Shown one piece after another: positions 1 through 20,184 of a DNA stretch of 20,184 bases. Numbering within the stretch: the first letter of the stretch is position 1; each line of letters starts with the position of its first letter. The notes beneath the pieces were generated by a model. The model did not search any database, was not told the origin of the DNA, and saw only the letters and a program-made list of their open reading frames with translations. The stretch spans positions 1 to 20,184 of IMG/VR virus record IMGVR_UViG_3300032296_000823; one strand, written 5' to 3'. This DNA comes from a virus. The translations under genes were made by a program, and so were the position numbers.

Positions 1-2157
1 GCTGCAGGTGCGGCTGGGCAGGTTTTGGTTTCTGGCGGCACTGGAGCGCCCACCTGGGGCTCTGCGCTGATTGTATCTGATCAGGCTGCAAATGTGGTCT
101 ATGCTGGCCCGACAAGCGGGCCTGATGCTCCCACGTCCTTCCGGCTTTTGGTCACTGATGACCTGCCATCCTCGGGTGTTGTCGCGGCAACGTATGGCGC
201 GGCGGCGACGGTTCCGGTCTTCACGGTAAACGCCAAGGGGCAGATTACGGCGGTCACCAATACGGTGATCGCCATTGATGCCTCTCAGATTACGGCCGGC
301 ACTCTTGCGGTTGCTCGGGGAGGCACTGGCCTTTCGACAACGCCAGCCAATGGCGAGATTGATATTGGCAATGGCACTGGCTTCACGCGCACGACGCTGA
401 CTGGCTCCAGTGGCATATCAATCACCAATGGCGCCGGCAGCATTTCCGTTGGCAATTCTGGGGTGCTTTCTTTCAGTGGCGGCACTACGGGCCTCACGCC
501 TGCGAGCCCCACCACGGGTGGCGTGACGCTTGCTGGCACTCTTAATGTGGCCAATGGCGGCTCTGGTGCCGCGACGCTTAGTGGCTACCTGAAGGGCAAT
601 GGAACCAGTGCATTTACTGGCTCTGCCACCATCCCCAATACCGACATCACCGGCCTCGGCACGATGTCTACGCAGAATGCGTCTTCCGTTGCGATTACCG
701 GCGGGACTGTAAACGGCACGTCAATCGGCGCGACCACGCCGGCTGCGGGTACGTTTACCTCTGTTGGGATGACGAGCGGCACGATTACGACTGCGCCATC
801 TTCCGGCAATGACATCGTCAATAAGACCTATGCCGATTCTATTGCGGCGGGCATCAATTTTCACCAGTCTTGCCGTTTGGCTACGACTGCCGCGCTTCCG
901 AGCAATACCTACAACAATGGCGTTTCTGGGGTTGGCGCGACGCTTACTGCTACGGCGAATGGCGCCCTGTCGGTTGACAGCACTGCAGTGGCGGCGACCA
1001 ATCGTATCTTGGTCAAGAATGAAGTCAATCAGGCTTACAATGGCGTTTATGTCGTCACCCAAACGGGCAGCGCGGGTTCGCCGTTTATTCTGACCAGGGC
1101 GACTGATTTTGACACTGCTGGGTCTGGCGTTGATCAGATTGATGCCGGCGACTTCTTTCTTATTACTGCCGGATCTACCCTGGCCAATACTTCTTGGGTG
1201 CAGCAGACGCCGCTGCCCATTACGGTTGGCACGACGGGGATTGTGTTTTCTCAGTTTGGCGCGCCGCTGACTTATTCTGCCGGCACGGGCCTGACTGAGT
1301 CGCCGGCATACACGTTCAACATTGCCAATACTGGCGTTGTCTCTGGCAGTTATGGCGGCGCGGCGACTGCCATGACGCTGAGCATCAATGCCCAGGGGCA
1401 GATTACTAGCGCCACAGACGTTTCGATTGCAATCAATGGCAACCAGATTACGTCTGGCACTGTCGGGTCTGCCTACATCAGCGGATCTTACACGGGCATC
1501 ACAGGTGTTGGGACGCTGACTTCAGGCACTTGGAATGCCACCACCATGGGCGTTGCCTATGGCGGCACTGGCCTGACGTCTTATGCGGTTGGCGATTTGA
1601 TTTATGCCAGCGGCACGACGACGCTTTCCAAATTGGCTGACGTTGCCACTGGCAATGCGCTGATTTCTGGGGGTGTGGGCGTCGCGCCGTCATATGGCAA
1701 GATTGGCCTCACCACGCATATTACTGGCACTTTGGCTGTCGGAAATGGCGGCACTGGATTGGCTACGCTTACGGGTTCAAACAGGGCGCTGTATTCAACG
1801 TCTTCAAGTACATTGACTGCAGGAACCTTGCCGGCTGCTGCCGGTGGGACAGGCAATTCATCATATACTGCTGGCGACATCCCGTATGCGTCTGCGACTA
1901 CCACGATTTCAAAGCTCGCTATTGGCACAGTCGGTACGGTTCTGACTTCTACCGGCACTGCGCCATCTTGGGCGGCGCAGTCCACCTTAGCGGTTGGCAC
2001 GGCCACCAATCTTGCGGGTGGGGCTGCCAGTCAGGTGCCTTATCAGACGGGTGCCGGGGCGACTGCCTTTGTTGCCAATGGCACGGCTGGTCAGGTGTTC
2101 AAATCAAATGGCGCAAGCGCGCCGACGTGGGCCAATATTGATGGGGGCACATTCTGA
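1..2157 (+). CDS. Tail fibre protein, 5'-truncated by the window edge
   Basis: The frame is open from base 1 to a TGA at 2155-2157 (718 codons visible), so the true start lies upstream. The TTG at 25 is not a credible start because the upstream codons continue the same motif. The protein is a long, Gly/Thr/Ser/Ala-rich, cysteine-poor beta-repeat polypeptide. GGTG or GGSG motifs recur near 319, 556, 1561, 1747 and 1842, which is typical of trimeric phage tail fibre shafts. GQIT..QIT segments repeat near 235-300 and 1393-1455. A GQV-x-x-S/N-G-x-APTW motif appears at the left edge and again before the C-terminal NIDGGTF. A non-repetitive segment around 817-1250 may be a folded shaft or knob domain. 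Inferred role: host recognition as a virion fibre. The anchor domain is not visible, so its attachment point is unknown. Confidence 0.85.
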   Translation, partial: AAGAAGQVLVSGGTGAPTWGSALIVSDQAANVVYAGPTSGPDAPTSFRLLVTDDLPSSGVVAATYGAAATVPVFTVNAKGQITAVTNTVIAIDASQITAGTLAVARGGTGLSTTPANGEIDIGNGTGFTRTTLTGSSGISITNGAGSISVGNSGVLSFSGGTTGLTPASPTTGGVTLAGTLNVANGGSGAATLSGYLKGNGTSAFTGSATIPNTDITGLGTMSTQNASSVAITGGTVNGTSIGATTPAAGTFTSVGMTSGTITTAPSSGNDIVNKTYADSIAAGINFHQSCRLATTAALPSNTYNNGVSGVGATLTATANGALSVDSTAVAATNRILVKNEVNQAYNGVYVVTQTGSAGSPFILTRATDFDTAGSGVDQIDAGDFFLITAGSTLANTSWVQQTPLPITVGTTGIVFSQFGAPLTYSAGTGLTESPAYTFNIANTGVVSGSYGGAATAMTLSINAQGQITSATDVSIAINGNQITSGTVGSAYISGSYTGITGVGTLTSGTWNATTMGVAYGGTGLTSYAVGDLIYASGTTTLSKLADVATGNALISGGVGVAPSYGKIGLTTHITGTLAVGNGGTGLATLTGSNRALYSTSSSTLTAGTLPAAAGGTGNSSYTAGDIPYASATTTISKLAIGTVGTVLTSTGTAPSWAAQSTLAVGTATNLAGGAASQVPYQTGAGATAFVANGTAGQVFKSNGASAPTWANIDGGTF
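1561..1758 (+). repeat. Fibre module repeat, copy 1
   Basis: This 198-base in-frame module starts and ends at a GGTG motif and contains LYAS/IYAS, SKLADVATGNALISGGVGVAP and GLTTH elements. It matches 2406-2603 in the next fibre gene without indels. By eye, 11 of 66 residues differ, with many additional silent changes. A more degenerate third copy begins near 1842 (GGTGNSSYTAGDIPYAS). Confidence 0.85.
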
Positions 2158-2219
2158 TGATTGACGAAATGGTTGCTCTTCAACTGAAAACTCAGTACAA
2201 ATCAGGGAACCTGAGGTAA
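2157..2219 (+). CDS. 20-aa mini-ORF between two fibre genes
   Basis: An ATG overlaps the fibre stop codon by one base (TGATG) and opens a 20-codon frame, MIDEMVALQLKTQYKSGNLR, ending at TAA 2217-2219, three bases before the next fibre start. The string GGGGGC about ten bases upstream could serve as a weak ribosome binding site. The end of this frame contains the AGGTAAG that serves the 276-aa fibre gene. It may be a real micro-protein, a coupling leader, or a leftover of a gene start. A very similar fibre end with TGATGA occurs at 9012-9029, where the ATG starts the nozzle gene. I do not recognise the peptide. Confidence 0.35.
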   Translation: MIDEMVALQLKTQYKSGNLR

Positions 2220-2222
2220 GCC

Positions 2223-3053
2223 ATGGCACAGACTGGTTACACCCCAATCCAGTTGTATCGCACTACAACTGCTAGTGCGACGCCTATTGCTGGCAATTTG
2301 GCGGACGGCGAGCTTGCCATCAACACGACTGACGAGAGGCTTTACTTCAAGAATGCCGGCGGCACGGTAAAGCTTCTTGCGGCTAATGTTACCCCTGCAG
2401 CAAATGGTGGAACGGGCCAATCGTCTTACACGGTTGGTGATTTGCTTTATGCGAGCGGGTCTACCACGCTGTCTAAATTGGCCGATGTTGCGACTGGGAA
2501 TGCCCTCATTTCCGGCGGCGTTGGCGTGGCGCCCTCTTGGGGTAAGGTTGGCCTGACGACGCACGTCAGTGGCACGCTGCCTGTCGCCAATGGCGGCACT
2601 GGCACTGCCACGGCCTTCACCTCCGGGTCTGTTGTCTTCGCTGGCGCCAGTGGCGTTTACAGCCAAGACAATTCCAATCTTTTTTGGGACGACACAAATA
2701 ATCGCCTGGGCGTTCGCACGGCGACCCCTGCGGTATCTTTGGCGATTTCTGCGACTGACGCCATCCTAGTGCCTGTGGGAACCACCGCGGAGCGTCCTAC
2801 GGGCGCCACGGGCTATTTGCGGTTCAACAGTAGCACCACAAGCTTTGAAGGCTACAATGGCACCGCATGGGGCTCCATTGGCGGTGGCGCGACGGGTGGC
2901 GGCACGGATCAGGTGTTCTATCTGAATGGTCAGACCGTGAATACCAGCTACTCAATTCCTGCCGGCCAGAATGCCGGTTCGTTTGGACCAATCACTGTGG
3001 CGAGCGGCGCGACTGTGACCGTTCCTTCAGGCTCAACTTGGACGGTGACATAA
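2223..3053 (+). CDS. Short tail fibre protein (276 aa)
   Basis: The N-terminus carries a typical phage fibre opening, GELAINTTDERLYFKNAGGTV (about residues 29-49), followed by GGTG modules (about residues 62-127) shared with the upstream fibre. A TTAERPTGATGYLRFNSST-type strip (about 186-204) comes next. The C-terminal region has DQVFYLNGQTV, YSIPAGQNA and VPSGSTW motifs, common in fibre tips of many unrelated phages. The start is supported by AGGTAAG just upstream. It is shorter than a full fibre and has no obvious anchor domain, so it may be a distal subunit that assembles on the larger fibre. Assignment to a fibre is firm; its position in the virion is inference. Confidence 0.82.
   Translation: MAQTGYTPIQLYRTTTASATPIAGNLADGELAINTTDERLYFKNAGGTVKLLAANVTPAANGGTGQSSYTVGDLLYASGSTTLSKLADVATGNALISGGVGVAPSWGKVGLTTHVSGTLPVANGGTGTATAFTSGSVVFAGASGVYSQDNSNLFWDDTNNRLGVRTATPAVSLAISATDAILVPVGTTAERPTGATGYLRFNSSTTSFEGYNGTAWGSIGGGATGGGTDQVFYLNGQTVNTSYSIPAGQNAGSFGPITVASGATVTVPSGSTWTVT
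2406..2603 (+). repeat. Fibre module repeat, copy 2
   Basis: Second copy of the 198-base fibre module, colinear with 1561-1758 from GGTG to GGTG. The amino-acid sequence is largely conserved while many codon third positions differ. This suggests an old duplication or independent acquisition with selection on the protein. Confidence 0.85.
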
Positions 3054-5221: not shown

Positions 5222-5362
5222 ATGAAACTCGAACTCACCATCACCGAAATCAATTCGGTGCTCCAGGCGCTGGGCAACATGCCCTACGCTCAGGTGTTTG
5301 AGCTCGTAGAGAAAATCCGCGCCCAAGCAAAAGAGCAGCTGGAAGAGCCTGCCCAAAAGTGA
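5222..5362 (+). CDS. Small conserved phage-type protein (46 aa)
   Basis: A 46-codon frame from ATG 5222 to TGA 5360-5362. It begins MKLELTITEINSVLQALGNM and continues PYAQVFELVEKIRAQAKEQL. From memory, short proteins with this pattern (LELT..E.N..L..LG..P...V..L..KI) are found near lysis and tail genes of many phages, function unknown. It is probably a small two-helix protein with a charged tail. It sits 8 bases after tip B and 4 bases before the membrane-anchored protein at 5367. It has no strong Shine-Dalgarno and may rely on coupling. Confidence 0.7.
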   Translation: MKLELTITEINSVLQALGNMPYAQVFELVEKIRAQAKEQLEEPAQK

Positions 5363-5366
5363 CGAG

Positions 5367-5831
5367 ATGGAACTTCCCAAGCTCACTCCGGTAATTCAAT
5401 TTGCGACAGCCAGTTTTGCGCTGGCCGTTGGCGGCTACACGGCCGGCGAAAAGTTTGGCTGGTTCAAGAATGAAATCATCTCCTGGGCGCCAGAGCATTT
5501 CAGAATTGTCGATACCAAGATTGGGCAGCCCGTTACGGTAACAGTGGCGCGGATCAAAAAGCGCGACGACTGTTCTGTGGAAAACTTTGAGGTGACTATT
5601 CGCGACGGCACTGGTGTTATCCACCCTGCTACCCCAAGTATGACCCGGTTTACCGGCCCCGCAGGCCCTGAGATCGACACTTTTACCTATTTGCTGGATA
5701 TCTCAGACAAGGAAACCATAGCCCCTGGCCGGGCAACGCTCCTGGCCACGATCAAATACAAATGTCCTGAAGGTGAACGGACTGTTACCTATCCCCGGCA
5801 CCAGAACCTGACCTTTATGCTGGAGAAGTGA
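5367..5831 (+). CDS. Unknown protein with an N-terminal membrane segment (154 aa)
   Basis: I do not recognise this protein. Residues about 7-26 (TPVIQFATASFALAVGGYTA) are moderately hydrophobic and may form a membrane anchor or uncleaved signal. The remainder looks like a soluble beta-rich domain, with VTVTVARI, FEVTIRDG, FTYLLDI and ATLLATIKY strands and two cysteines. It lies immediately before the holin, so a role in lysis or in the envelope (spanin-like, antiholin or superinfection exclusion) is possible. No lipobox or classical spanin features were seen. The start at 5367 leaves only four bases after the preceding stop. Confidence 0.7.
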   Translation: MELPKLTPVIQFATASFALAVGGYTAGEKFGWFKNEIISWAPEHFRIVDTKIGQPVTVTVARIKKRDDCSVENFEVTIRDGTGVIHPATPSMTRFTGPAGPEIDTFTYLLDISDKETIAPGRATLLATIKYKCPEGERTVTYPRHQNLTFMLEK

Positions 5832-5832
5832 C

Positions 5833-6351
5833 ATGGAAAGCCTGCTGAACCTTGTGCGCACGGTCGCTCCAAGCATCGCCAGCGCCGTGGGGGGCCCCTT
5901 GGCTGGCATGGCCACCAGGGCGATTTCTGAGGCCCTGCTGGGCAAGCCAGACGGCACTGAGCAGGAGCTTGCCGAGGCCGCATCCAAGGCCACCCCAGAT
6001 CAGTTGCTGGCCCTCAAGCAGGCCGAGCAAGATTTTGCCGTGAAGATGCGCGAATTGGATATTGACCTGGAGCGGATTGCTAATGCTGACCGCGACAGCG
6101 CACGGAACCGGGAAGTGGCCGCCAAGGACTGGACCCCGCGTGTCCTAGCCGGGCTGGTTACGGGCGGTTATTTTGGGGTGCTGTTTTACATGTTGATCAA
6201 TGGCCTTCCAACGCATGGCGGGTCTGAGGCCATGTTGGTGATGCTTGGCACTTTGGGGACGGCCTGGGGTGGCATTATGGCATACTATTTTGGCTCCTCC
6301 GCCGGCAGTAAAGAGAAAACAGACGCGATGAATAGGATGGCTCGCAGATGA
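5833..6351 (+). CDS. Holin, three-TM gene-transfer-agent type
   Basis: Forms membrane lesions that release the endolysin at the end of infection. Residues about 8-28 are a hydrophobic N-terminal segment. A charged helical region follows (about 40-100: EQELAEAASKATPDQLLAL, DFAVKMRELDIDLERI). Two strong membrane helices then occur at about 103-125 (RVLAGLVTGGYFGVLFYMLI) and 132-155 (AMLVMLGTLGTAWGGIMAYY). The C-terminal YYFGSSAGSKEKT is the signature of the GTA_holin_3TM family. The length of 172 aa fits the family. GGAG lies upstream, and the gene ends with an ATGA overlap with the muramidase, the usual holin-lysin pairing. Confidence 0.9.
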   Translation: MESLLNLVRTVAPSIASAVGGPLAGMATRAISEALLGKPDGTEQELAEAASKATPDQLLALKQAEQDFAVKMRELDIDLERIANADRDSARNREVAAKDWTPRVLAGLVTGGYFGVLFYMLINGLPTHGGSEAMLVMLGTLGTAWGGIMAYYFGSSAGSKEKTDAMNRMARR

Positions 6352-6993: not shown

Positions 6994-7626
6994 ATGGCGT
7001 ATGTAATGACCTACGACAGTTTGCTGGTCGATCTGCGACGTTATCTTGAGCGTGGCTTTACGCAGGAAAGCGACCAGATTGTCTACGACCAGTTGCCTCG
7101 CCTTATCACATTGGGCGAGCGTCGGATTGCGCGCGAGCTGAAGATTGAGGGCTTTATTCGTGCCGTGCAGACGCCGCTTCAGAGTGGCGTTGCGGTCTAC
7201 TTGAAGCCAGATCGGTGGCGCGACACTGTCAGCATGACGCTTAATGGTGCGCCAATTTTTGCCCGGTCTTACGAGTATTGCCGCAACTATTGGCCGAATG
7301 AGGCCCAAACTGGCACCCCGCAGTTTTATGCCGACTATGACTTCCAGCACTGGCTGCTTGCGCCGACGCCTGACGCGGCCAGCACTCTGGAGATTTTGTA
7401 TTACGAGCAGCCTGCGCTGTTGGGTGAAGAGTTGCAGACGAATTGGCTGACGGAATATGCGCCTGATTTATTGCTCTACGCGGCGCTGTTGGAGGCGACG
7501 CCATTCTTGAAGAGCGACGAGCGCATGCAGACTTGGCAGGCTTTGTATGACAGGGCGGCTCAGGCCATTAGCGGCGAGGATCTGAAGCGCATCATGGATC
7601 GCAGCGCCAACAGGAGTGAAGCCTGA
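6994..7626 (+). CDS. Head-tail adaptor protein, SU10-adaptor type
   Basis: Mostly helical N-terminus with LLVDLRRYLERG, QLPRLITLGERRIARELKI (about residues 35-53). This pattern recalls the adaptor proteins of SU10-like short-tailed phages that sit between portal and tail. A middle beta part follows (VYLKPDRWRDTVSM, QFYADYDFQHWLLAPTPD) and a helical C-terminus (DLLLYAALLEATPFLKSD). The length of 210 aa fits. The start has GGCGGAG seven bases upstream. It is followed by a fibre gene with a TGATG overlap and then by the nozzle-like gene, which fits a neck/tail module. The family assignment is from memory of the motif and not from a search. Confidence 0.7.
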   Translation: MAYVMTYDSLLVDLRRYLERGFTQESDQIVYDQLPRLITLGERRIARELKIEGFIRAVQTPLQSGVAVYLKPDRWRDTVSMTLNGAPIFARSYEYCRNYWPNEAQTGTPQFYADYDFQHWLLAPTPDAASTLEILYYEQPALLGEELQTNWLTEYAPDLLLYAALLEATPFLKSDERMQTWQALYDRAAQAISGEDLKRIMDRSANRSEA

Positions 7627-9026
7627 TGACTATCTACACCGACGTTTTCGGCGGCGCTAATATCTACCCGAGTGAAATCAGCTACAGCTCAATCGCGCTT
7701 TCTGCTGATGTGACGCTCAGCTGGCCGGAAGAGACTTCCACCAATACCAATCTAGCGACTAGGATTATTGACGTCACGCCGGCATCTTCCGGTTTGAGCA
7801 TCATCCTGCCGGATGCCAACAAGACTGGCACTGGCAATACGATCCTCTTCAATAACCGCGGCGGGAGCACGTTTACTGTCAAGAATGCCGTCGGCACGCA
7901 GGTTGTCACGATTGCGGGCGGCGAGTTGTGGCAGGTTTATGTTGCCAGCAACACGACAGCGGCCGGCACTTGGCGGTCTTTGCAGTATGGCGCGGCGGCG
8001 AGTGTCGCGAATGCCTCTGCCCTGGCCGGCAATGGGATTGTCGCGGTTGGCACTCTTCTCAGCCAGTCTGTTCCGGTCACGACGTTTAACAGCAACTACA
8101 CGTCTGGCACTGCTGACCGCGCCCTCATGTACAATTGGACTGGCGCGGCTGGGGTGTTTACGCTGCCGGATCCTGCAGTGGTGGGGAATAATTGGTTTCT
8201 CTACCTGCGCAATTCAGGCACGGGCGCCATTGTGGCGACGCCGCCGGGCATTGTCACGATTGATGGGTCTGCGACGCTCAGTTTCCAGCCGGATGAGTCG
8301 GCCATCATTGTTTCGGATGGCACCAACTTCCACACCATTGGATTTGGGCAATCTGCGACTTTCGCGTTTGACTATACTGTCATTAGTGTTGCCGGAACTG
8401 GCACCTACACGCTGACAGGGTCTGAGCTCAATCGCATTGCGTACCGATTTACTGGCGTGTTGACTGGCAATCGTATTGTCGTCGTTCCGGCGACCATTCA
8501 GCAGTATTGGGTCGATAACCAGACGACTGGCGCGTTTACGTTTACGATTGCGCCATCTGGCGGTGGCTCTAGCGTCAGCATTGCCCAGGGCTCTCGTTCT
8601 ATCCTCTATTGCGATGGAACTGACGTTCTTGAGGCCGACACTGCCGGCGTGTCTTTTCCGATTACTATCGGTCAAGGCGGCACGAATGCCACCACGGCGA
8701 GCGGCGCGCGGATTAACCTAGGCGGCACTTCGACTGGGATTGCGCTCTTTACTGCCGCCGATCAGAATGCCGCCATGAGTGCCTTGGGCGGCACTGCGAC
8801 TGGCATTGCGGTGTTTACGGCTGCCAGCCAGAGTGCTGGCCGCACTGCCTTGGGTGCGACTACGACGGGCAGTGCCCTGTTTACTGCTGCCAGCCAGAGT
8901 GCTGGCCGCACTGCCTTGGGTGCGACTACGACGGGCAGTGCGCTGTTTACTGCAGTAGATCAGGCCGCGGCTTGGACTGCCTTGGGTGTCGCCCAGGCCG
9001 GCAATATCAATGGCGGCACGTTCTGA
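7626..9026 (+). CDS. Virion-anchored tail fibre protein (466 aa)
   Basis: The N-terminal part (about residues 1-130: TDVFGGANIYPSEISYSSI, VTLSWPEETSTNTNLATRII, GNTILFNNRGGSTFTV) resembles the anchor domain of fibres in aquatic short-tailed phages, where it precedes variable shafts. Beta-rich central modules follow, each ending in a statement like FTLPDPAVVGNNWFLYLRN or FTIAPSGGGSSV. The C-terminal region begins IGQGGTNATTASGARINLGG and has four tandem 22-residue repeats (8727-8990), ending NINGGTF. The start overlaps the adaptor stop by one base and has AGGAG upstream. Its position between adaptor and nozzle suggests that it binds the neck or tail directly. Confidence 0.82.
   Translation: MTIYTDVFGGANIYPSEISYSSIALSADVTLSWPEETSTNTNLATRIIDVTPASSGLSIILPDANKTGTGNTILFNNRGGSTFTVKNAVGTQVVTIAGGELWQVYVASNTTAAGTWRSLQYGAAASVANASALAGNGIVAVGTLLSQSVPVTTFNSNYTSGTADRALMYNWTGAAGVFTLPDPAVVGNNWFLYLRNSGTGAIVATPPGIVTIDGSATLSFQPDESAIIVSDGTNFHTIGFGQSATFAFDYTVISVAGTGTYTLTGSELNRIAYRFTGVLTGNRIVVVPATIQQYWVDNQTTGAFTFTIAPSGGGSSVSIAQGSRSILYCDGTDVLEADTAGVSFPITIGQGGTNATTASGARINLGGTSTGIALFTAADQNAAMSALGGTATGIAVFTAASQSAGRTALGATTTGSALFTAASQSAGRTALGATTTGSALFTAVDQAAAWTALGVAQAGNINGGTF
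8727..8990 (+). repeat. Four tandem 66-base (22-aa) repeats in the fibre C-terminus
   Basis: Units start at 8727, 8793, 8859 and 8925, each with the pattern T-x-TG-x-A-x-FTA-x-x-Q-x-A-x-x-x-ALG. Bases 8820-8875 and 8886-8941 are identical over 56 positions, so at least one duplication is recent. The repeats likely form a regular shaft or trimerising segment. Confidence 0.95.
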
Positions 9027-17978: not shown

Positions 17979-18160
17979 GCTTTGGCGGCGTAGAACTTCT
18001 CCAGGATTGGCGCGAGGGCGGCGGCATCAAATTCGTCGCCCTCATCTTTATCCACCCGGCCAATGTAAATCTTGCCGGGATTGAACTTCATGCTCGGCGC
18101 GATGAAGAGATTGCCTATGCGGATGTGCCAAGCGCATGCCGGCGCGTATTGCTGCTTCAT
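17975..18160 (-). CDS. Small unknown protein (61 aa)
   Basis: Starts at ATG 18160, overlapping the upstream gene stop by four bases (ATGA). A longer frame to 18250 would add 30 residues through a coding region of that gene and is rejected. It opens MKQQYAPACAWHIRIGNLFI and has KFNPGKIYIGRVDKDEGDEF and a helical end (AALAPILEKFYAAKA). I do not recognise it. Its stop TAG (17975-17977) overlaps the TAA of the convergent gene. Probably a small cytoplasmic phage protein of the minus-strand unit. Confidence 0.65.
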   Translation of the reverse strand: MKQQYAPACAWHIRIGNLFIAPSMKFNPGKIYIGRVDKDEGDEFDAAALAPILEKFYAAKA

Positions 18161-18348
18161 GGTCTTCCTATCGTTTCGTTTTTCTGGATCCTGATTTCGC
18201 TGTTCCGGTAGGACCAGCACTGGCCATTGTCGTCCAGGAAGCAGACCCATATCAGGTCTGCCTCTGGGCCGTAGTCAATGACGATGTGCGCCCAGGCCTT
18301 ACCCTTTGGGGTTATCACCGGGAGCGGCGGGTTCAATTGGTGGATCAT
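18157..18348 (-). CDS. Small conserved phage-type protein (63 aa)
   Basis: Opens MIHQLNPPLPVITPKGKAWA and continues HIVIDYGPEADLIWVCFLDD, NGQCWSYRNSEIR, NETIGR. From memory, proteins of this type (PPLP.ITPKGK..AH..IDYG...L.WV.F....G.CW...N..IR) occur in many alphaproteobacterial phages and prophages, function unknown. The first 50 bases lie inside the XRE-like gene upstream, in another frame; GGAAAGAGA before the ATG and the conserved N-terminus support this start. Its stop overlaps the start of the 61-aa gene. Confidence 0.75.
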   Translation of the reverse strand: MIHQLNPPLPVITPKGKAWAHIVIDYGPEADLIWVCFLDDNGQCWSYRNSEIRIQKNETIGRP

Positions 18349-18604
18349 TTTCTCTTTCCATCATGGCCGCGGCCTTTTCGACTGAGATGATCAGGCTGGA
18401 GAGTTTGACGTTGCAGACGGTGGCGAAGGTCACGAGGTGGGCCCAGCTGGGTGATCCCCTGCCCCCCTCCCATGACGCTATGGCCGATCGAGAGACGTTT
18501 ATCCGGCGGGCCAACTCAGTCATTGTCCAGTTGCGATATTTACGCGCCGCGCGCAGGGACACCCCCAACGCGCGTGCGTACAATTCATTGCGTGCTCGTG
18601 GCAT
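18299..18604 (-). CDS. XRE-family helix-turn-helix regulator
   Basis: DNA-binding protein of 101 aa. The XRE/Cro-CI fold occupies about residues 14-72: LGVSLRAARKYRNWTMTELA, then RRINVSRSAIASWEGGRGSP and WAHLVTFATVCNVKLSSLI. S38-A41-W45-E46 are at the usual recognition-helix positions. A short charged, Pro-rich tail follows with no dimerisation or peptidase domain, so it resembles a Cro-like or short CI-type repressor. The start codon overlaps the MarR-like stop by one base (TAATG), so the two are probably co-translated. Targets are not identified; no clear operator was seen. Confidence 0.85.
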   Translation of the reverse strand: MPRARNELYARALGVSLRAARKYRNWTMTELARRINVSRSAIASWEGGRGSPSWAHLVTFATVCNVKLSSLIISVEKAAAMMERENDPPIEPAAPGDNPKG

Positions 18605-18900
18605 TAAGTATCAATCAACTTTTCCACGAAGTTGATGCCCTTCCTGGTAATGAGGATACGGACCTTGCGGCGGTCAACTTTCTCTTCGCGGCGCCGTTTG
18701 AGGAGGTCTTGCTCTTCAAGTTTATCCAGGGTGCGGGAGACTGCCGGCGCGGTAACGCCAAGCTCTTCTGCCATTTCGTGGACCAGGAAATTGGTTTCCT
18801 GCAGGTAGGCCATGAACAAGATCTTCAGCGAGAGCTTGTTTACCTTTCCAGAGCGAGCCAGCACGAGATTGATGAATTGTGCCTTTTCAAGGTTGGTCAT
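18604..18900 (-). CDS. MarR-like winged-helix regulator (98 aa)
   Basis: Winged-helix DNA-binding protein. Helices at about residues 22-36 (KLSLKILFMAYLQET), then HEMAEELGVTAPAVSRTLDK (41-60) as helix-turn-helix, LEEQDLLKRR (61-70) and a beta wing with VDRRKVRILITRKG (75-88) containing the DRR-type wing motif of MarR. It is shorter than classic MarR proteins (about 140 aa), lacking most of the N- and C-terminal dimerisation helices, so it may be a phage-type minimal form. AGGAGA lies directly upstream of the ATG, overlapping the end of the zinc-finger gene. Likely controls phage or host transcription; the ligand, if any, is unknown. Confidence 0.85.
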   Translation of the reverse strand: MTNLEKAQFINLVLARSGKVNKLSLKILFMAYLQETNFLVHEMAEELGVTAPAVSRTLDKLEEQDLLKRRREEKVDRRKVRILITRKGINFVEKLIDT

Positions 18901-19262: not shown

Positions 19263-19309
19263 AGGCTCTTCACCACGTTGTAGATGATCATCAAGATTAG
19301 GTCGATCAT
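19259..19309 (-). CDS. 16-aa hydrophobic micro-ORF (coupled on both sides)
   Basis: ATG at 19309 overlaps the TGA of the 71-aa gene by four bases, and its own TGA overlaps the start of the zinc-finger gene by four bases. It encodes MIDLILMIIYNVVKSL, hydrophobic enough for a single membrane pass. The exact fit in both junctions argues against chance, but the reading could equally be a coupling spacer. No homologue known to me. Confidence 0.45.
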   Translation of the reverse strand: MIDLILMIIYNVVKSL

Positions 19310-19521
19310 TTGTCTTCCTGCCATGCCCGTTCAAAAATATCGGGCGGATCTCTGTTCTCGCCTTCCCAGCCTCGGGCTTGCACGGCCTTGCGCGCCCACT
19401 CCATGGCTTCTTCTTTCGTGGTTTCATAACCAACAGTCATAACATTATTGCCGCGCATGATTGCGGCCATCCAAAGCTCTCTTGTGTAATCGCGGCCAAT
19501 GACAATTTGCAGGTCGCTCAT
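19306..19521 (-). CDS. Small unknown protein (71 aa)
   Basis: Starts at ATG 19521, in the 21-base box with GGGAGAAAAGGA before the start. It opens MSDLQIVIGRDYTRELWMAA and continues IMRGNNVMTVGYETTKEEAM, EWARKAVQARGW and a Pro/acidic end. It reads like a compact alpha/beta protein with a C-terminal helix. Function unknown. It lies 14 bases after the 80-aa gene and overlaps the micro-ORF by four bases. Confidence 0.7.
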   Translation of the reverse strand: MSDLQIVIGRDYTRELWMAAIMRGNNVMTVGYETTKEEAMEWARKAVQARGWEGENRDPPDIFERAWQEDK

Positions 19522-19534
19522 TCCTTTTCTCCCA
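19514..19534 (-). promoter_or_regulatory. Start-associated repeat box, copy 1
   Basis: Minus-strand TGGGAGAAAAGGAATGAGCG plus one A. It contains the ribosome binding site, the start codon and codon 2 of the 71-aa gene. Identical to 19771-19791 and 19989-20009. Here it lies mostly in non-coding sequence, unlike the other two copies. Confidence 0.9.
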
Positions 19535-19535
19535 C

Positions 19536-19778
19536 TTAATTCATTGGTTTCTGGTTGTCATATTTAATCGGCGGGAAACTCCCGACAATCTTTGCCATAT
19601 CCGCAGCCATTTTTTTCTTGCGTCCGGTTTTTACCGTCATCTCAATTCCCAACGCCAAGGCTTGAGCTATGGCCCTAATCACATCGTGACCATCCAAATC
19701 ATTTTCTTCCCCTCGAGCCATCGCCCAAGTCACAATAGCAATGGAGAAGTTTAAAATATCATCATGCTTTTCGCTCAT
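19536..19778 (-). CDS. Small unknown protein (80 aa)
   Basis: Starts at ATG 19778 in the 21-base box and overlaps the preceding gene by four bases. It opens MSEKHDDILNFSIAIVTWAM, then ARGEENDLDGHDVIRAIAQA, then ALGIEMTVKTGRKKKMAADM, and ends in a Pro/Lys/Asn-rich tail. Helical and mixed in charge, function unknown. It ends (TAA) just before the next box. Confidence 0.7.
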   Translation of the reverse strand: MSEKHDDILNFSIAIVTWAMARGEENDLDGHDVIRAIAQALALGIEMTVKTGRKKKMAADMAKIVGSFPPIKYDNQKPMN

Positions 19779-19791
19779 TCCTTTTCTCCCA
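19771..19791 (-). promoter_or_regulatory. Start-associated repeat box, copy 2
   Basis: Same 21 bases as at 19514-19534. Here the box also encodes the LGEKE end and stop of the preceding gene, while providing the ribosome binding site and start of the 80-aa gene. The identity with copy 3 continues two bases further. Confidence 0.9.
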
Positions 19792-19996
19792 GCAGCTCGC
19801 GTGTTTCCGGCTTCAGCTTATCCCAATCGCCGCGCCAGATATGCTTCGCCAAATCCTGCACAGCAGCGCGCAGCTTTTCGATTTCGTCGGCGGCTTCCCT
19901 TGCCACCGTACCTTTTACCCATATTACTGGGCTTCTCAGCCCATCTGTTGCTGAAGCAAACTCAGTAGAGCGCAGCCGTTCCACAATGTCGCTCAT
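19775..19996 (-). CDS. MSDIVERLR-type small protein (73 aa)
   Basis: Start taken at ATG 19996, in the 21-base box and overlapping the upstream gene stop by four bases; the longer frame to 20032 is rejected for that reason. It opens MSDIVERLRSTEFASATDGL and has AREAADEIEKLRAAVQDLAK and an end ELLGEKE. The MSDIVERLR ... AADEIEKLR pattern is common in small alphaproteobacterial phage and prophage proteins of unknown function. It is related to the next gene upstream: both carry (A)ADEIEKLR and both end LGEKE, and 27 bases in each (19871-19897 and 20122-20148) differ at one position. Confidence 0.78.
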   Translation of the reverse strand: MSDIVERLRSTEFASATDGLRSPVIWVKGTVAREAADEIEKLRAAVQDLAKHIWRGDWDKLKPETRELLGEKE

Positions 19997-20009
19997 TCCT
20001 TTTCTCCCA
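19989..20009 (-). promoter_or_regulatory. Start-associated repeat box, copy 3
   Basis: Same 21 bases as the other two copies. It encodes the LGEKE end and stop of the right-edge partial gene and gives the ribosome binding site and start of the 73-aa gene. Confidence 0.9.
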
Positions 20010-20184
20010 GCGCCGCGCGGGCGATTCTGCACAGTTGATCCATGTATGACATTGGGTGTGCGTCTTGTGTGTGCGCTTTGATTGCAAGCAACGCTTGCTG
20101 CATTGCGCGCCGTTCCTTTCTCAGCTTTTCAATTTCGTCGGCGGCTTCATCGCATATCTTACGTTCTGTTGTTCGGGTGCTTAA
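19993..20184 (-). CDS. Partial small protein, paralogue of the 73-aa gene, cut by the right edge
   Basis: The minus frame is open from the window edge to a TGA at 19993-19995; 63 residues are visible, with the start outside. It includes CDEAADEIEKLRKERRAMQQ, ALLAIKAHTQDAHPMSYMDQ and LCRIARAALGEKE. The shared DEIEKLR segment and the identical LGEKE end mark it as a relative of the protein at 19775-19996, while the rest has diverged. Function unknown. No in-frame stop occurs to the edge. Confidence 0.75.
   Translation of the reverse strand, partial: LSTRTTERKICDEAADEIEKLRKERRAMQQALLAIKAHTQDAHPMSYMDQLCRIARAALGEKE

Follow-up and report, generated by a model that had tools for sequence, protein, structure and literature searches.

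A repeated start box at gene junctions as a probable standard joint of small-gene cassette arrays in uncultured phages

The window, by which we mean the whole stretch of DNA analysed here, is a complete viral contig of 20,184 bases, and the array of small genes on its minus strand is cut at position 20184 because the contig itself ends there. A search of the window returned exactly three copies of a 21-base box, TGGGAGAAAAGGAATGAGCGA, all on the minus strand, at 19514-19534, 19771-19791 and 19989-20009. The original prediction that the same bases cover the ribosome binding site, the ATG and codon 2 of genes starting at 19521, 19778 and 19996 was borne out by exact matches at these places, and the proteins encoded behind the three boxes, which had been described as different, proved mutually unrelated. 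The further claim that the box encodes the LGEKE end of the preceding gene in two cases was confirmed for the genes ending at 19993 and 19775, where the stop and the next start overlap as ATGA. The third copy is untranslated because the preceding gene stops earlier, in TAA, yet it is identical in sequence. When the 20-mer of the box was searched at up to three mismatches, 100 shuffles yielded no match, which ruled out a chance origin. The features of this end of the window are as follows.

19989..20009, minus strand: start box copy 1 (21 bases), comprising the LGEKE end and stop of gene 19993-20184 and the Shine-Dalgarno, ATG and codon 2 of gene 19775-19996
19771..19791, minus strand: start box copy 2, comprising the LGEKE end and stop of gene 19775-19996 and the start of gene 19536-19778
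19514..19534, minus strand: start box copy 3, untranslated (the upstream gene ended in TAA at 19536), with the start of gene 19306-19521
19993..20184, minus strand: array gene cut by the contig end, tail ...AHTQDAHPMSYMDQLCRIARAALGEKE, a tail type found behind other heads in other contigs
19775..19996, minus strand: array gene MSDIVERLRSTEFAS..., tail ...GDWDKLKPETRELLGEKE, found behind other heads in G004, G023 and G026
19536..19778, minus strand: array gene MSEKHDDILNFS..., 80 aa, with a relative at a different array place in G004
19306..19521, minus strand: array gene MSDLQIVIGRDYT..., 71 aa, predicted to form three strands and a helix
20119..20148, minus strand: inner joint copy 1 (EAADEIEKLR codons), within gene 19993-20184
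19868..19897, minus strand: inner joint copy 2 (EAADEIEKLR codons), within gene 19775-19996

Searches beyond the window revealed many further boxes, whose absence would have counted against a role of the box as a joint. The exact 20-mer occurred in 37 further IMG/VR stretches and a pattern of the core plus a short upstream part in 69, giving 71 box contigs when joined (the window included) from 64 records or datasets. By DNA alignment these contigs fell into approximately 20 groups, and they differed in their terminases (phrog_2, phrog_38), portals (phrog_156, phrog_1216) and replication genes. Up to ten boxes were present per contig (G022), always on a single strand. A scan of bacterial genomes gave 12 matches, none in an array context, which we read as chance. 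Among named phages, a search for the box found no DNA match, two array proteins gave a single weak match to a Paracoccus phage, and the box was absent from phiM5 and C72C1, whose terminase or portal places them among the closest named relatives. Since the contigs had been collected through the box itself, two gene families were also searched by protein. The box (at most four mismatches) stood at all 22 readable gene starts of the MSDLQIV family, most of whose contigs were already known, and at 24 of 33 readable positions of the MSDIADK family (at most three mismatches); the MSDIADK positions without it were mostly the first array member after non-array genes, or untrue starts. In one contig, G040 (loci L130 and L132), a variant box, TGGGAGAGAAGGAATGA, preceded by CGCTTATC, occurred three times in one array, and the box seems to be made uniform within a lineage. 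The G040 array was present twice, at 2146-3047 and 57954-58855, near each contig end, and is probably a terminal repeat.

Our analysis of 181 unique junctions, for which boxes with up to four mismatches were admitted, reduced the constant part to 17 bases, TGGGAGAAAAGGAATGA; the trailing GCGA of the 21-base form is part of the commonest downstream gene starts (MSD/MSE) rather than of the constant core. GGAGA and ATGA were nearly invariant, and at 173 of the 181 junctions the upstream reading frame ran into the ATGA of the next gene. Within the box, GGGAG forms the Shine-Dalgarno, with GGAG 7 bases ahead of the ATG, which is the usual spacing. The most variable place in the core was the spacer at positions 10-11, where changes turn E of the upstream peptide into Q or K, or end the peptide, and it is therefore the ribosome site and the start that are conserved, not the peptide GEKE. 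Selection on that peptide was ruled out, given that a first codon position was among the most variable and that one window copy is untranslated. Nor is the box a general ribosome-site consensus of these phages, an explanation ruled out by the scarcity of strong Shine-Dalgarno sequences at ATGA junctions elsewhere in these contigs (53 of 246). GGAG at the exact box place was found at 9 of these 246 junctions vs 169 of 178 array junctions, the latter figure being inflated by the selection of junctions through the box. Judged by its base pattern, the box is shown to be a well-formed coupled start, and the suggestion that it sets a common translation control was upheld in the plain sense that its Shine-Dalgarno is strong and well spaced, a combination seldom seen at the remaining gene junctions of these contigs.

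Comparison of gene content between boxes, which had been proposed as a check, revealed that it is unstable in relatives, so that stable content as a ground for refutation fell away. We identified 184 unique junctions, in which 91 upstream types and 92 downstream types (single-linkage clusters at chosen thresholds) were joined in 165 combinations, and 36 of the 39 recurrent upstream types were paired with more than one downstream type. Among pairs of box junctions, one flank alone was common in 523 and both flanks in 26, as against 38 and 52, respectively, for control ATGA junctions in the same contigs; when the comparison point was moved 75 bases past the box or 75 bases ahead of it, the corresponding counts were 164 and 152, or 223 and 108. 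The ends of DNA homology between contigs were concentrated at the box: the 51-base windows around boxes cover 8% of positions, which is the share expected, but took in 32% of the unique starts of homology and 26% of the unique ends. Ordinary ATGA junctions outside the arrays displayed a weaker pile-up (12.8% and 8.1% vs 4.8%). In identity profiles, pairs sharing the upstream flank remained highly similar through ATGA and then fell to background, and pairs sharing the downstream flank rose from background in the last few bases before the box. Across many phages, contig comparison thus shows the box to be the point at which one flank differs while the other is retained.

The same switch was visible between close relatives. 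A recombination junction inside the box, which had also been proposed as a check, was found between the window and its nearest relative, G010: the two are 98.6% identical over 5743 bases, and this identity starts at 20007, two bases into the box (first base 20009), with a different gene before the box. The more distant relative G004 carries the tail of the window gene 19775-19996 behind a different head, and its array holds the relative of the MSEKHDD gene in a different position. In a second pair, G063 and G042, a stretch of 1142 bases that reaches to the middle of an array gene matches at 97.8% identity and a stretch of 772 bases from the next box onward at 99.6%; between these matching stretches a tail of approximately 186 bases is replaced by one of approximately 132 bases. 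Chimeric metagenome assembly could in principle produce such junctions, given that the box is repeated and that every contig was assembled. However, 45 junction types recurred in at least two independent metagenomes, which excludes chimeric assembly for the main pattern; 10 downstream types each had at least two replicated upstream types, and the forms of G063 and G042 were each present in a second, independent metagenome, so that this pair was replicated on both sides. The probability that we attach to an assembly artefact is accordingly negligible. Taken with the flank mosaicism and the homology ends, the replicated junctions strongly support the original prediction that boxes mark joints at which small-gene cassettes are inserted, lost or swapped.

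A second joint conserved at the DNA level, EAADEIEKLRAA, lay in the middle of many array genes. Around it, one side was common in 82 pairs and both sides in 4, and approximately 20% of homology ends fell there (4.6% expected). Its codons were far more uniform than those in the rest of the same genes, with AAG at 94% vs 54%, CTG at 84% vs 38% and CGG at 76% vs 21%. The inner joint is therefore a case of DNA-level identity where no ribosome site exists. The 179 array proteins comprised 81 head types and 110 tail types, and the sharing pattern shows, at the level of sequence, that the inner joint lets protein heads and tails be exchanged as well. In the array genes of many contigs, further inner linkers (RDALEEAA..., AERDALRAE...) also seem to part heads from tails, and the tails of these linker genes end in AAIRALGEKE; the two linkers are possible third and fourth joints.

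The inner joint bears directly on the idea that the box serves translation only, either as a favoured start signal or as the target of an RNA-binding protein, and that its place at mosaic joints is incidental since gained genes keep or acquire the signal. Such a role would fit the way conservation tracks the Shine-Dalgarno and the start, the identical sequence of the untranslated window copy, and the mild enrichment of homology ends at ordinary ATGA junctions. However, it leaves unexplained both the codon-level identity of the inner joint, where there is no ribosome site, and the identity reaching past the signal at the box. Exchange was also far stronger at boxes than at other ATGA junctions, the switch was sharp in close relatives (window/G010 and G063/G042), and the same contigs seldom use a strong Shine-Dalgarno elsewhere. 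We consider a purely translational box improbable.

Tandem duplication of one ancestral gene, with constant ends and a fast-diverging middle, would account for the common heads (MSDIVERLR, MSDIADK) and the coiled-coil middles of many array genes, and duplication therefore surely contributes. Whole-gene duplication had been named as a possible refutation of the joint and fails as such, for the genes that follow the box encode unrelated proteins, among them a Lar-type zinc-binding protein, pentapeptide repeats and the MSDLQIV fold. Together with the window/G010 and G063/G042 joints, at which near-identical DNA gives way to unrelated DNA, these genes contradict duplication as the full explanation, which we regard as very unlikely.

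Exchange at joints inside genes also argues against a site-specific cassette system, in which the box would be the recombination site of an integrase or transposase in the manner of an integron. The asymmetric site, its single orientation and the arrays of single-gene cassettes are what such a system would produce. However, no long-ORF family was common to the contigs, the widest being present in 19 of 71 (many contigs are fragments, and an enzyme could be missed). Spacer positions 10-11 were linked to neither flank, and there is therefore no sign of one fixed crossover base, a pattern that could also reflect mutation. Site-specific recombination is, in our estimation, quite unlikely, if somewhat less so than duplication.

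We therefore favour, with a probability of roughly three in four, the reading that phage cassette arrays use the box as their standard joint, a strong, coupled start that doubles as a short recombination homology. On this proposal, a small gene would typically end in ...LGEKE-stop and the next gene would begin in those very bases, with ATGA coupling the stop of one to the start of the other. A cassette swapped between two boxes would remain in frame, coupled and translatable, because most array genes are bounded on either side by this joint, set in one and the same relative frame. The exchanges may proceed by homologous recombination on short identities, with phage single-strand-annealing recombinases (Sak4-like, ERF or RecT-like in different contigs) as the likely agents, and the core would be kept by selection for translation and spread by recombination. 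With regard to homologous exchange, the analysis covered annealase genes and lengths of identity in the contigs. Among the box contigs, Sak4-like genes were found in 14 (E below 1e-10), ERF in 7 and RecT over the cut-off in 5; the window fragment gave no annealase match. Of the unrelated junction pairs, 22% had 20 or more identical bases in common and 11% had 23 or more, and the minimal homology given for recombination is 23-27 bases for Red-beta and 31-34 for RecA (PMC3945230). With 11% of pairs at 23 bases or more, many exchanges must have relied on longer identities outside our sample, on boxes that are extended, or on less homology. Some of the sharing of a single flank could also stem from gene-sized insertions or deletions rather than swaps.

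More tentatively, and with doubt outweighing confidence, the box and the inner linker boxes may constitute a standing system of modular assembly, a phage counterpart of exon shuffling. If so, the joints would be maintained for in-frame swapping of genes and protein halves among unrelated phages that share hosts, so that small early proteins, some of them anti-restriction (Lar), would be generated as a combinatorial repertoire without a dedicated recombinase.

Several known systems resemble the box in part. The boundary sequences of lambdoid phages (Clark et al. 2001, HK620), as presented in PMC2327257 and PMC3029335, flank exchangeable modules and are thought to serve homologous recombination. 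Both they and the box are short conserved sequences at mosaic joints, with ATGA-overlap gene junctions, and the box likewise lies exactly where inter-phage homology begins or ends. In contrast to the lambdoid case, one box serves every array position, many unrelated genes and approximately 20 phage groups, with a second DNA joint present within genes. The nin-region starts of lambda and HK620 had no common box within a genome, their longest in-register identity being 11 bases, and the universal, position-independent joint is therefore a new feature. We accordingly file the box with the phage boundary sequences, its universal and position-independent character being new.

The original prediction had compared the box with the start-associated sequences (SAS) of cluster K mycobacteriophages, which are 13 bases long, GGGATAGGAGCCC with up to two deviations, belong to non-structural genes, mostly ones more than 50 bases from their neighbour, and carry inverted repeats in half of the cases (PMC3203893). 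The likeness in position and repetition stood: both are short, repeated and oriented elements that supply many different genes with a Shine-Dalgarno at their starts, and the box, too, lies immediately upstream of many different gene starts in one orientation. The identity did not, since TGGGAGAAAAGGAATGA differs from GGGATAGGAGCCC and the box overlaps the upstream stop (ATGA at 173 of 181) in place of gaps of more than 50 bases. Sequence and gene spacing thus ruled out the box as a cluster K SAS, and gene exchange at the box is a further difference. The promoter-early stem-loops (PeSLs) of T4-like phages, as outlined in PMC4503421 with reference to Arbiol 2010 and Comeau 2014, are repeated between small early genes and are said to mediate shuffling. 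By that outline they share with the box a repeated element and gene shuffling between related phages, but a PeSL is a promoter and terminator stem-loop between genes, whereas the box is a translational stop/start joint inside coding sequence, and inspection of the 17-base core revealed no inverted repeat.

Relaxed homologous recombination by phage Rad52-like and Red recombinases effects exchange on short identity (PMC3945230, PMC2327257), and both the proposed enzymes and the short identity have their likeness here, annealase genes being present in many box contigs. Those studies addressed the mechanism on mosaics without a standard joint, whereas the joint at the box is standardised. To our knowledge, most phage mosaic joints have no common sequence, and this makes homologous and illegitimate mosaicism hard to tell apart by test. 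One short joint reused within an array and across phage groups renders the joint itself, its length dependence and the recombinase directly testable. The box also exemplifies a simple way of keeping each swapped gene translated and in frame, and it offers a tag by which accessory early genes of a large group of uncultured phages, likely anti-defence genes among them, could be collected.

With regard to the content of the arrays, a head of the Lar restriction-alleviation family was found among the array proteins of other contigs (E 4e-10), namely in G003 at 2429-2752 (L090) and in G007 at 5331-5864 (L010), where an EI(E/R)KLR linker leads to tails that also occur in other array genes. Among the array heads elsewhere there was, in addition, a pentapeptide-repeat protein. 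The Lar-headed genes provide a lead to anti-restriction cassettes, and both kinds of head fit accessory early genes acting against host functions; we infer that the arrays hold such accessory early genes, some perhaps directed against host defence. The array genes of the window had no match to defence families, and gene 19536-19778 had no family match. The MSDLQIV protein (gene 19306-19521) was predicted to fold into three strands and a helix with a mean pLDDT of 84, and a structural search with this fold gave no significant match.

Other genes of the window were noted in passing. Adjoining the array, directly past it, are two regulator-like genes on the minus strand (18299-18604 and 18604-18900), of the repressor-type helix-turn-helix and the MarR-type winged helix. 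Behind them, approximately 1 kb past the array, lies a minus-strand gene at 18157-18348 (MIHQLNPPLPVITPKG...), which is related to a gene standing directly after the box in several other contigs (MIQQLNPPLPLLTPKG...). On the plus strand, the window carries two long, repetitive, Gly/Thr-rich reading frames (25-2157 and 7626-9026) with recurring GGTG motifs and a fibre-like look.
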